DNA from: Halobacteriovoraceae bacterium
Lineage (GTDB): Bacteria > Bdellovibrionota > Bacteriovoracia > Bacteriovoracales > Bacteriovoracaceae
Direction: 5' to 3'
DNA: 64,000 bases
Assembly: GCA_002711995.1 (NCBI GenBank)
Contig: PASN01000014.1
Coordinates: forward strand, 186,001-250,000
Shown here: piece after piece, positions 4,614-9,526 of the stretch
How the letters are laid out: each line of letters starts with the position of its first letter
Position numbering within the stretch: the stretch's first letter is position 1
The notes under the pieces: model-generated
What the model was told of the DNA's origin: nothing
Database searches by the model: none
Seen by the model: the letters and a program-made list of their open reading frames with translations, nothing else
Made by a program: the position numbers and the translations under genes

Positions 4614-4643
4614 AAAAAACGCGCGGGGAGAGAGACCCGCGCG
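4612..4643 (-). terminator. Rho-independent terminator on the minus strand
   Basis: A perfect stem CGCGCGGG/CCCGCGCG (4620-4627 with 4636-4643) encloses the 8-base loop GAGAGAGA. Read on the minus strand it is followed at once by eight T residues (complement of 4612-4619). It would end transcripts from the lipoprotein gene at 4750-5328. It abuts the stop codon of the plus-strand U32-like gene, so the hairpin may also serve that gene, although there is no T run on the plus strand. Confidence 0.75.
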
Positions 4644-4726
4644 TCCTTAAGAGAGGGAGAGAGATTGTCGCATTAAGGCGCGACAGACCTTTCTGTTTTT
4701 TCTAATTTTTTACTTTTTTTGATCAA

Positions 4727-4749: not shown

Positions 4750-5328
4750 TTATTGATAGTACTGCTGGTTTCTACACAGGCTTGACTGTGCTTGTGTGCC
4801 TTGTACGTGTATAGGTCTGAAGCCTAGGTAGTACGGTTGGCCGTAGCTTGACGCTAGCTGTACGTCTGCATTTGACACTTGGCCCATAGGACATGAATAA
4901 GAGTTCTCTACAACCACCTGGCTCATTAAATTGCCCTGTCCTGTGAGTCCTGCTCTTGGACATAGGTACATGTGCATCACAGACTGTCCGTTTTCATTTC
5001 TAATAACTGCTATGTCTCCGTAGCTTGTTACGCCGACATATAGCGCTCCTACATTAACTTGAGCGTTTACTTGAATTTTTGTGGTTGCCCTCTGTCCTCC
5101 TTGTTGACAGCGGTTCTCATTAGAGACAATGTCCATCCAATTGCTGGGAAGGCTGTTGCCGTTTCCGCCTTGATAGACGCCTCCGCCAAATCCACCCCAA
5201 CCAACATTGCCATTGCTGTTGTCGCCGGATTTGTTGTTTTTACCACATGCAACTGAAAGTGTTGCAACGAATAAAATGACTGCCAGATTTTTAAGGCCTC
5301 TAGCAAACCTTCTCTCTGTTGTTCTCAT
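4750..5328 (-). CDS. Exported lipoprotein with Gly/Asn-rich linker
   Basis: This 192-residue protein has a long basic start (MRTTERRFARGLKNL), a hydrophobic core and the lipobox LSVAC at about residues 24-28. A Gly/Asn/Ser-rich linker (KSGDNSNGNVGWGGFGGG and onward) follows, then a compact domain with five further cysteines that could form disulphides. No family was recognised. The start has a long purine tract (GAGAGAGAGGAGAGAAAG) ahead of it that supplies the ribosome site. Two hairpins follow the stop. It is divergent from the rsbS operon, and the site array at 5434-5490 lies between them. Confidence 0.75.
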   Translation of the reverse strand: MRTTERRFARGLKNLAVILFVATLSVACGKNNKSGDNSNGNVGWGGFGGGVYQGGNGNSLPSNWMDIVSNENRCQQGGQRATTKIQVNAQVNVGALYVGVTSYGDIAVIRNENGQSVMHMYLCPRAGLTGQGNLMSQVVVENSYSCPMGQVSNADVQLASSYGQPYYLGFRPIHVQGTQAQSSLCRNQQYYQ

Positions 5329-5433
5329 CTTTCTCTCCTCTCTCTCTCTTTAAAGCTGACTGAACAGCTTTGTTATGCCTTTAATAATGCATAGCGTGTG
5401 CCAACTTTTTTTACGAAAAAACAGAGGGTTAGG

Positions 5434-5490
5434 TGTCCAGATCTTGTACATATTATGTACACCTTCACAAAACTGTACAATCCTTGGACA
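5434..5490. promoter_or_regulatory. Array of five TGTACA/TGTCCA operator-like sites
   Basis: Hexamers sit at 5434 (TGTCCA), 5445 (TGTACA), 5456 (TGTACA), 5474 (TGTACA) and 5485 (TGGACA, the complement of TGTCCA). Start-to-start distances are 11, 11, 18 and 11, so most sites lie on one face of the helix. The middle pair forms the perfect inverted repeat TGTACATA-T-TATGTACA (5445-5461). A TATATT that could be a -10 element lies just downstream at 5492-5497, without a good -35. The array is between divergent genes and about 60 bases ahead of the rsbS start. The binding regulator is not known. Confidence 0.6.
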
Positions 5491-5548
5491 GTATATTAGG
5501 AATATTTTTGAGCAAGACTTAAACAAAATTAAGAAAAAGGAGTTTGGA

Positions 5549-5977
5549 ATGGGTTCAGAAGGGCTAACAAGTAGTAGTGATTTCAATCATTTGGTACAGG
5601 TGGCAAATTTGTGGGATGGAATACTGTTTCTTTCTTTGACAGGTTTTATCGATTCAGCAAGATCTGAGACTATTATAAACAAATCTCTCAGTAAGATTCA
5701 TAACACTGACGCCCCCTATTTGGTGGTAGATATCTCTGGTGTTCATGCAGTGGATTCAGCTGTGGCCAAACACTTGTTTGACCTAAATAGCGCTGCGGCA
5801 CTGATGGGGTGTGAAGCTGTGTTTTGTGGGTTAAGCCCAGCGGTGGCGCATTCAATGGTTTCCTTAAACCTTGACTTTCAAAACGTTACAACGAGAACCA
5901 CTATTCAAGCAGCTCTAAACTACTGTCTGTCTGGGCAAGGTTATGAGGTTACTAGGAAGTCTGGAGTTTCGGAGTAA
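5549..5977 (+). CDS. rsbS: RsbS-type STAS domain protein
   Basis: This 142-residue STAS protein starts at ATG 5549 with AAAAGGAG 7 bases upstream; the longer frame from 5375 runs through the promoter region and is rejected. Key segment: PYLVVDISGVHAVDSAVAKH, with the VDS serine near residue 69 where RsbS is phosphorylated. It is followed by ALMGCEAVFCGLSPAVAHSM and VTTRTTIQAALNY, both typical of RsbR/RsbS proteins. In the Rsb stressosome, RsbS holds the RsbT kinase until phosphorylated. Here rsbT follows two genes on. Its end overlaps the next gene by 35 bases. Assignment is strong; the downstream target (sigma factor, cyclase or phosphatase) is not in the window. Confidence 0.82.
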   Translation: MGSEGLTSSSDFNHLVQVANLWDGILFLSLTGFIDSARSETIINKSLSKIHNTDAPYLVVDISGVHAVDSAVAKHLFDLNSAAALMGCEAVFCGLSPAVAHSMVSLNLDFQNVTTRTTIQAALNYCLSGQGYEVTRKSGVSE

Positions 5978-6266
5978 GTCGTTGGAATATATAAACATTG
6001 GTAAATCAAACGCCACATTCCATCTTTTTCATGGTGAGTGCGAAGACTATAGGAGAGAGTTTGTTTTGCCTCTTGAAGAAATCTTGAATGATAAAGGCAT
6101 TATAGATGTTTATCTGGACTTCGGTAGACTCAGTTATGTGACTGAGAAGGAGGCCCAGGCAATAGAAAGACTGAAAAGCACACTCTCGCTTTTAGATCTA
6201 AATACTAAGGATGAGAATATGCGACCTTCGGTATCTCTCGCACTAAGTCGCTGGGGAAATCCCTAG
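5943..6266 (+). CDS. Short divergent STAS-like protein
   Basis: This 107-residue protein is encoded between rsbS and rsbT, overlapping rsbS. It has a weak STAS pattern. A central strand and turn IDVYLDFGRLSYVTEKEAQA sits where STAS proteins have D-[LF]-x-x-[VL]-x-x-[VI]-D. A final MRPSVSLALSRWG resembles the (G)LRPEVA-x-x-L segment of RsbR/S. The phospho-acceptor Ser/Thr position is occupied by Thr (YVTEKEA). By position it could replace the RsbR scaffold or be a second RsbT antagonist. The start is uncertain because no good ribosome site is seen at 5943. Confidence 0.5.
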   Translation: MRLLGSLEFRSKSLEYINIGKSNATFHLFHGECEDYRREFVLPLEEILNDKGIIDVYLDFGRLSYVTEKEAQAIERLKSTLSLLDLNTKDENMRPSVSLALSRWGNP

Positions 6267-6277
6267 AAAGGTTATGA

Positions 6278-6694
6278 ATGGATAGTGTTTTTAAATTTTC
6301 TAGAGATTTGAAAATCGAAAAAGACATTATGGGCCTTGTGAACTGTGTGTTCGAACTAGGCAAAAGATATGAGCTGGAGAGTGTGGACTTGTGCAAGAGT
6401 GCGACCGCCATCAGCGAGCTTGCAACCAATTTGGTAAAATACGCAAAGAATGGCTCAATGACTGTTCATTTGTCCAAATCCGACAGTGATTTCTTGTTGT
6501 CGATAGAGTCAAAGGATGATGGACCTGGAATAGAAGATATTGAACTTGCGATGTCAGAAAACTTTAGTTCGGGTAAAAGTTTGGGTGTAGGGCTTCCAGC
6601 GGTTAAGAGATTGACCGACACATTTGAAATAGAATCATCTTCTGAAGGCACTCTTATAAAAGTTAGTAAAAGGATTGGGAGGTTAAATGCTTGA
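6278..6694 (+). CDS. rsbT: RsbT-type serine kinase (HATPase)
   Basis: This 138-residue GHKL ATPase has the N-box SELATNLVKYAKNG (about residues 48-61), the G1 box DDGPGIEDIE, the G2 box GKSLGVGLPAVKRLTD and a closing SEGTLIKVSKR. The order and spacing match RsbT, the switch kinase that phosphorylates RsbS/RsbR and, once free, activates a partner such as RsbU. It lies between the STAS genes and a histidine kinase and overlaps the latter by 8 bases. Neither an RsbU phosphatase nor a sigma factor is nearby, so its output is unknown. Confidence 0.82.
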   Translation: MDSVFKFSRDLKIEKDIMGLVNCVFELGKRYELESVDLCKSATAISELATNLVKYAKNGSMTVHLSKSDSDFLLSIESKDDGPGIEDIELAMSENFSSGKSLGVGLPAVKRLTDTFEIESSSEGTLIKVSKRIGRLNA

Positions 6695-7775
6695 TCATGT
6701 TGTCTTTCCAATTTATAGCTACAAGGAGGTAGGGTCTTTTCTGGAGATTGTTCATGACGTTTTGAGGGAGAAAGGCGTTTCTTTCATAAAGATCATAGAC
6801 ATTTGCTCTGAGTTGGATCAATTATTCTCTCAGATTTTAGAGCGTGAGAGCACTTTTGAAATCAATATCTTGGATTCCGTCAGGATAATGTGTAAGGTTG
6901 ATTTTCAAGTAAAACTTGTTGATTTAAAAGAAAGCGGTGAAGGGGCGGAGCTATCAATACCTTTTTTTGAACTTAACGATGAAGTTAGGGAACTCTTTAT
7001 TTCAAGACAGAGTCATAAGCAGAAGGCCCAGTACGTAAAGCTTTTAAATAAGTCATTGCAAGATAAAAACGAACAAATACAAAAGATGTATGACTCAAAA
7101 AGCTATCTTGTAAACTTCTTGGCACATGAGCTCAGAAATCCTTTGATGGCGATACTAAACTCTATTGAATTAATGCGGACAGCTCCCGAGATGATCTCCA
7201 CTATGGAACTAGATAAGGTTCTCGAAAATGTTGCTGGTAACATGAAGAAACTGGTGGATGATGTTTTAGACTTTTCCAAGCTTGAAACAAACAAAATGGA
7301 ATTCGAAACCCAAGAAGTCGAGGTCAAAACTTTTTGTGCGGAGTTTGCAAAATACGGCGAAACTTTAACTGAGAGTCGGGAGTTAGACTGGAAAACAATT
7401 GGTATAGAAAATCTGAATGGGGCAACGATGAAGGTGGACCCTTTTAGAGTTAGACAGATTTTATCCAACCTAGTAGGGAATGCTCTTAAATTTACCGAAA
7501 AAGGTCACGTCGCTTTCAGTGCCAAGGTTGAAGATGGCAAAGTGCTTCTAGGTGTTCATGACACAGGAAGAGGCATTGAGAAGAAGTTCCAATCATCCAT
7601 TTTTAAAGAATTCACTCAAGAAAGCTCTTCCATAAGTAGAGAGTTTGGTGGATCTGGCTTGGGACTCAATATTTGTTACAATCTTTGTAAAAAAATGAAT
7701 GGCGATCTTTGGTTCGAAACCGAAGCAGGGAAGGGAACATCATTTTTCGTAGGGCTTCCACTGGCAAAGCAGTAA
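6687..7775 (+). CDS. Soluble sensor histidine kinase
   Basis: This 362-residue histidine kinase has no membrane segment. Residues 1-130 are an unrecognised sensor region ending in a coiled coil (KLLNKSLQDKNEQIQKMYDS). The HisKA H-box NFLAHELRNPL has the phospho-His near residue 147. It is followed by an N-box (RQILSNLVGNALKFTEKG), a G1 box (GVHDTGRGI), an F-box (IFKEFTQ) and a G2 box (GGSGLGLNIC). It is the last gene of the Rsb-type operon. Coupling of a two-component kinase to a partner-switching module suggests phosphorelay input or output. No response regulator gene is adjacent. A terminator follows. Confidence 0.85.
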   Translation: MLDHVVFPIYSYKEVGSFLEIVHDVLREKGVSFIKIIDICSELDQLFSQILERESTFEINILDSVRIMCKVDFQVKLVDLKESGEGAELSIPFFELNDEVRELFISRQSHKQKAQYVKLLNKSLQDKNEQIQKMYDSKSYLVNFLAHELRNPLMAILNSIELMRTAPEMISTMELDKVLENVAGNMKKLVDDVLDFSKLETNKMEFETQEVEVKTFCAEFAKYGETLTESRELDWKTIGIENLNGATMKVDPFRVRQILSNLVGNALKFTEKGHVAFSAKVEDGKVLLGVHDTGRGIEKKFQSSIFKEFTQESSSISREFGGSGLGLNICYNLCKKMNGDLWFETEAGKGTSFFVGLPLAKQ

Positions 7776-8712: not shown

Positions 8713-9526
8713 TTGTTTTCTCCTTAAACATTTCGCCCATGTGGTCAAATGACTCCATTGAACGGTGCGGAGTCAAACTGTCGCCTGATAGTTTTTTCTT
8801 GGCCGCCGCCATAAGTCCTATGCCAATTAGCAATAGGCCTACACCTGTAATAAGCGCTGCCAACCACCAAGATACAACGTATCCAAGAGCTATGATGATT
8901 GTTGCCGCTATCGCCTGAATCCCCACAAATGCCACAATTGTGCCTGTTGTAATGGAGACTGCCCCTTGCTTAATTAATGAGGTCTTTTCCCCAAGCTCAG
9001 TTCTGATAAGATCCGACTCTTTTCTTATTAAAGTTGAGAAATCTGTGTAGAACTCGTTGTAGAGTTGTTTCCAATTCTTTCTAGAACTAGACTCATATCC
9101 CTCATCGCGATCATATGCAGCTCTGTGGTAATGTCTTTCAGGCTCATATGGCTCTCTGCCTATGTCACTGTCTCTTGAGCGTCTATCGTGTTCCGATTCA
9201 CTGCTACTTGAGCCTCTATAGGATTGAGAGTGGTGGCCTGCGCGGGCTATTCGATCACGCTCTCTAAGATCCTTTTCGTTCCCATAGTAATGGGTGGAAA
9301 AGTCTCGGTCAGAACTTCTCATTCCAGTTTTCTCTTTGGCGTAAGTATGCTCAGTTGAGCTTGCGGACCTGCCCCTTTGGTCAATGTCTCTTGATCTACT
9401 TGTGAAACCCTCTCCATGTTGGGTCCCTGGCTCTGGATTGTAGCCTGAAGGTGTTGCGCCTGATCCCTGAGGTCCAGTTACTCTAGATTTTCTTCTTGAA
9501 CGTATATTTTCGTTTCTATTTTCCAT
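8693..9526 (-). CDS. DUF1469/YqjE-like (phage-holin superfamily III-like) membrane protein
   Basis: This 277-residue protein has a clear AAGGAG ribosome site. The first 150 residues are a disordered, Arg/Ser/Asp/Tyr-rich tail. The C-terminal half begins NWKQLYNEFYTDFSTLIRKE, continues with an amphipathic helix (LIRTELGEKTSLIKQ), and has two transmembrane helices (about 185-207 and 211-235) with a Gly-rich turn and a basic end. This is the DUF1469/YqjE layout, an inner-membrane protein of unknown biochemical role. The long charged N-terminal tail is unusual for the family. It is the middle gene of the three-gene cluster. Confidence 0.72.
   Translation of the reverse strand: MENRNENIRSRRKSRVTGPQGSGATPSGYNPEPGTQHGEGFTSRSRDIDQRGRSASSTEHTYAKEKTGMRSSDRDFSTHYYGNEKDLRERDRIARAGHHSQSYRGSSSSESEHDRRSRDSDIGREPYEPERHYHRAAYDRDEGYESSSRKNWKQLYNEFYTDFSTLIRKESDLIRTELGEKTSLIKQGAVSITTGTIVAFVGIQAIAATIIIALGYVVSWWLAALITGVGLLLIGIGLMAAAKKKLSGDSLTPHRSMESFDHMGEMFKEKTNEITRH

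Follow-up and report, generated by a model that had tools for sequence, protein, structure and literature searches.

What does an array of short repeats control when it lies between two divergent transcription units, a lipoprotein gene and an Rsb-type signalling operon? In the 64,000-nucleotide stretch of DNA that we analysed (hereafter the window), five hexamers start at plus-strand positions 5434, 5445, 5456, 5474 and 5485, in steps of 11, 11, 18 and 11. An earlier note on this DNA had reported these positions and steps, which reading the sequence confirms, and had described every hexamer as TGTACA or TGTCCA; this holds for the first four on the plus strand, whereas the fifth (5485–5490) is TGGACA on that strand and TGTCCA on the minus strand. 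Since the two asymmetric outer hexamers point inwards, the natural reading is three 17-bp dyads of the form TGTMCA-N5-TGKACA, to none of which a strand is assigned. O1 (5434–5450, TGTCCA-N5-TGTACA) and O2 (5445–5461) have the half-site at 5445–5450 in common; O2 is the perfect inverted repeat that the note had claimed, TGTACATATTATGTACA; and O3 (5474–5490, TGTACA-N5-TGGACA) stops 2 nt short of a TATATT element (5493–5498, plus strand), against which the array had correctly been said to end. Because the outer hexamers face each other, 11-bp direct repeats of the OmpR/PhoB type are ruled out. A MerR-type spacer operator at O3 was also rejected, a -35 element at the right distance being absent, and the consensus sites of TnrA, CRP/FNR, TraR, NtrC and NifA mismatch in spacing or letters.

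A functionless chance cluster of hexamers would be consistent with two counts in the window: single TGTMCA hexamers exceed expectation only mildly, staying near background (65 against 48 expected), and the looser TGT-N11-ACA occurs at 19 places. The paired dyad behaves differently, with exactly three occurrences in the genome (3.7 Mb in 23 contigs, 96% complete), all within these 57 bp, and none for the backwards control; base composition alone predicts about 1.07 for a genome and 0.018 for 64 kb. Relatives also keep the symmetry and position of the dyad, the conservation that the note had proposed as a check, and the chance reading, already contradicted by these results, is exceedingly improbable. 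The proposal that the sites form an operator array, in phase along one face of the helix and read by a dyad-binding regulator, is supported. The suggested genome scan for TGTACAT-N3-ATGTACA pairs fared otherwise: scanning this genome for the exact TGTMCA dyad revealed no regulon, long reading frames contain four of the five other TGTNCA-N5-TGNACA sites, and a regulon appears only with TGTYTA, the half-site of the relatives.

Between the array and the start codon of the lipoprotein gene lies a sigma-54 -24/-12 promoter, TTGGCACACGCTATGCA (5404–5388, minus strand), with GG-N10-GC set within TTGGCAC-N5-TTGCA, 60 nt before the ATG; the earlier note does not mention it. This is the sole exact match to TTGGCACN6TGCA in the genome, in which a looser sigma-54 pattern occurs 45 times against 4 for the control, a tenfold excess, and an RpoN gene is present. 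The inferred transcription start, near 5377 on the minus strand, places the centres of O1, O2 and O3 at about -65, -76 and -105, with 59 nt from the start of O2 to the -24 GG. The inferred target (4750–5328, minus strand) encodes an exported lipoprotein of 192 aa with a signal peptide and a CGKNNKSG lipobox region, for which no family was found in Pfam or NCBIfam. A strong terminator-like hairpin of 13 pairs (window positions 4615–4648) separates this gene from a pair of U32-peptidase genes. Elsewhere in the genome (contig C11, approximately 8844–9140), the lipoprotein has a second, distant paralogue, whose gene is divergent from a DeoC-like gene and has a dyad, TGTTTAAGTTTTATACA, just upstream.

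Sigma-54 promoters need an AAA+ enhancer-binding protein (bEBP), which binds upstream and reaches the promoter by looping (PMC7057263). The genome yields 14 sigma-54-activator AAA+ hits, and seven of the proteins that were read carry GAFTGA or GSFTGA. For these reasons we read the array, with a probability of about 0.72, as the upstream activating sequence (bacterial enhancer) of the sigma-54 promoter from which the lipoprotein gene is transcribed leftwards, bound by a putative bEBP; bEBP enhancers are an already known kind of element, of which this array is a new case. Dimers of an NtrC-like AAA+ activator with a Fis-type HTH would bind the 17-bp TGT-N11-ACA dyads and oligomerise over the three phased sites, the intervening DNA would loop, and the activator would remodel the sigma-54 polymerase waiting at TTGGCAC-N6-TGCA. 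Here we infer the class of binder, the looping and the activation; dyads beside bEBP genes, which were searched to name the binder, gave nothing convincing.

A congener (G001) keeps two of the three dyads. In O2, symmetric changes in the half-sites give TGTATA-N5-TATACA, with the 59 nt to the -24 GG unchanged; O3 (TGTACAAAACTTGGACG) is conserved except for its last base, and O1 has lost its outer half. The G001 assembly contains two slightly different copies of the intergenic region at contig ends (C454 and C182), probably representing two strains. Before the operon, one copy preserves TATATTAG exactly, whereas the other differs from it by a single change; at the TATATT element, GTATATTAG is kept in one copy and GTGTATTAG stands in the other.

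Orthologues of the lipoprotein occur in many family members, and in one clade (11 genomes from five genera) the sigma-54 promoter precedes all 11 of them, 45–77 nt before the ATG. A TGT-N11-ACA dyad lies 59–89 nt upstream of the promoter in eight of the 11, for example TGTCTAAAAATTAGACA (G066), TGTTTAAAGTATAGACA (G112) and TGTCTAAAAACTATACA (G111), the arrangement expected of a conserved bEBP upstream activating sequence; in G019 and G113 the promoter is present and no clear dyad was found ahead of the lipoprotein orthologue. From the start of the dyad to the GG, the distances are 59, 69, 78–79 and 88–89 nt, advancing in helical steps (R=0.86). When all inverted triplets with spacers of 3–18 were scanned in the 120 nt upstream of the 11 clade sequences, TGT-N11-ACA ranked top, with eight of 11 sequences against 0.52 expected and in none of 300 shuffles, counts to be read with the knowledge that the sequences are related and therefore not independent, that this pattern had been noticed in some of them beforehand, and that some combination of triplet and spacer likewise attained a raw count of 8 in two of the 300 shuffles.

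The same gene appears to have exchanged its promoter elsewhere in the family. In the other orthologue-bearing clade (genera g24, g5 and g66) no sigma-54 motif was found before the lipoprotein gene, and in most cases a sigma-28-like TMAAG-N14-17-CCGATA lies upstream instead, about 63–65 nt before the ATG. One alternative sigma factor has thus apparently been replaced by another at a single gene, whose orthologues would depend on sigma-54 in one clade and on a sigma-28-like factor in another.

On the other side of the array, the plus-strand operon (5549–7775) begins with a STAS-domain (anti-anti-sigma-like) gene (5549–5977; Pfam STAS, 9.6e-14), whose start was picked from AAGGAG and the congener. 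It continues with a 107-aa reading frame (5943–6266; no family found, and possibly with its true start further in), an HATPase (RsbW/SpoIIAB-like) gene (6278–6694; HATPase_c, 9.5e-11; spIIAB, 4.4e-12, below cut-off) and a histidine kinase gene (6687–7775; HisKA and HATPase_c); a response regulator is absent from it. TATATT is a possible -10 element of this operon, and no good -35 was seen at it, which makes the operon promoter itself uncertain. Among 59 genomes searched with the operon HATPase (own genome included, G110–G113 outside the set), a close orthologue occurs only in the own genome and in G001.

The array might mainly regulate this operon, a dimeric regulator at O3 blocking or assisting sigma-70 polymerase while O1 and O2 serve in an auxiliary role. 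The 2-nt gap between O3 and TATATT, the fact that both are largely kept in the operon-bearing congener, and the occurrence of the three-dyad form only where the operon is present would agree with such a role. However, the dyad still precedes the lipoprotein gene in species where the operon was not found, its distances follow the sigma-54 promoter, and a clear -35 for the operon is missing, so that we consider operon-centred regulation quite improbable. Since all 11 orthologues keep the promoter and eight keep the dyad, while the operon was found only in this genome and one congener among those searched, the array is best seen, on comparative sequence grounds, as belonging to the lipoprotein promoter, following the lipoprotein and not the operon. 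Of the targets that the earlier note had offered (the Rsb/kinase operon, the lipoprotein gene or both), the lipoprotein gene is therefore favoured, and the emphasis on the operon gives way to a dyad that persists without it and to a conserved minus-strand sigma-54 promoter at enhancer distance. Control of the operon as well is possible, because O3 adjoins TATATT and the congener largely preserves the two; a regulator at O3 could perhaps also touch polymerase at TATATT, which would couple the operon to the same regulator as the lipoprotein gene.

The dyad extends well beyond this gene. TGTYTA-N5-TARACA occurs 69 times against 18 for the control in the 11 genomes of the clade with the sigma-54 promoter (totals summed over per-genome counts), with 21 against 2 in G112 alone. 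The stricter TGTYTAAA-N-TTTARACA reaches 214 against 7 in 129 family genomes and 56 against 7 in 240 genomes from elsewhere in the phylum (totals summed from a per-genome table); CACC or CACT often comes next. Within 130 nt of a first set of 60 loci, 26 sigma-54 motifs point away from the dyad and 6 towards it; for the second set, 19 dyads taken from other genomes, the counts were 10 outward and none inward, making 36 outward and 6 inward together. Genes behind the dyads of the first set have signal-like N-terminal segments, called by a crude hydropathy rule, in 46 of 48 cases, compared with 6 of 27 reading frames of the window; the second set gave a weaker result (10 of 16 against 5 of 16). 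Phasing in the first set (R=0.49 at 10.25–10.5 bp, p ~0.002, several periods having been tried) did not recur in the small second set.

The own genome has 27 occurrences of the looser TGTNYA-N5-TRNACA against 11 for the control, and three further sites precede both a sigma-54 motif and a gene for an exported protein (C7:49041, C1:129568 and C8 near 81272, TGTCAATAAATTCGACA); among 30 upstream regions of sigma-54 motifs in this genome, a plausible close TGT-N11-ACA dyad was seen in only two. The half-site here, TGTMCA, and that of O2 in G001, TGTATA, both depart from the family TGTYTA. Since position, spacer and target class agree, we file the array as related to the family dyad, its sequence placing it short of a proven member. 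Most likely, the lipoprotein gene is one member of a wider family set of exported-protein genes with a similar site; that the array is a locally re-tuned, three-site version which has also captured the Rsb-type signalling operon on its other side is a more tentative suggestion, and on balance a doubtful one. A defined operator, often accompanied by a sigma-54 promoter, before many exported-protein and lipoprotein genes across the family amounts to a testable regulon, and it is this family-wide dyad that holds the larger interest and deserves a study of its own. The open papers searched contained no match for such an operator; among the papers listed, searches for TGTCTAAA and TTTAGACA turned up unrelated text only, and one for Bdellovibrio with sigma-54 returned nothing on point.

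The wider set also bears on the identity of the binder, which may not be a bEBP, or not a bEBP alone, because a recognisable sigma-54 promoter is missing at about half of the dyads in relatives, where a TATAAT-like element, about 65 nt from where the dyad begins, often takes its place. A non-bEBP global regulator of exported-protein genes, acting at both sigma-70 and sigma-54 promoters, would explain why such sites still precede signal-peptide genes, several with the TATAAT-like element at that distance, and a separate, unseen bEBP would then drive the promoter here. The half-site difference between this array and the relatives is a further point contrary to the bEBP explanation. Yet Desulfovibrio bEBP sites are known before operons that lack sigma-54 promoters (PMC4641369). 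The sigma-54 motifs are, besides, strongly oriented relative to the dyad (36 against 6), and where a promoter is present, at about half of the relatives' dyads, it lies 56–117 nt away; distances of 56–111 nt suit an enhancer. A global regulator of this kind is accordingly unlikely in our view, and an enhancer bound by a bEBP remains the preferred reading.

Among known systems, the NtrC site, TGCACC-N5-GGTGCA, is a 17-bp sigma-54 enhancer dyad that is often paired, and the array resembles it in dyad length and 5-bp spacer; it differs in the letters of its half-sites, TGTMCA, and nitrogen genes are absent nearby. NifA sites, TGT-N10-ACA upstream of a sigma-54 promoter, have the same TGT and ACA half-sites in the same position, but the spacer here is 11 and not 10, and the target is a lipoprotein gene. 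Published bEBP motifs in the sigma-54 regulome of Desulfovibrio vulgaris include TGT and ACA 11 bp apart, at sites that lie upstream of the sigma-54 promoter, mostly by less than 100 nt (PMC4641369). Our array shares these half-sites, their spacing and their place upstream of a sigma-54 promoter, and differs in lineage, in target and in its composition of three overlapping or phased dyads.
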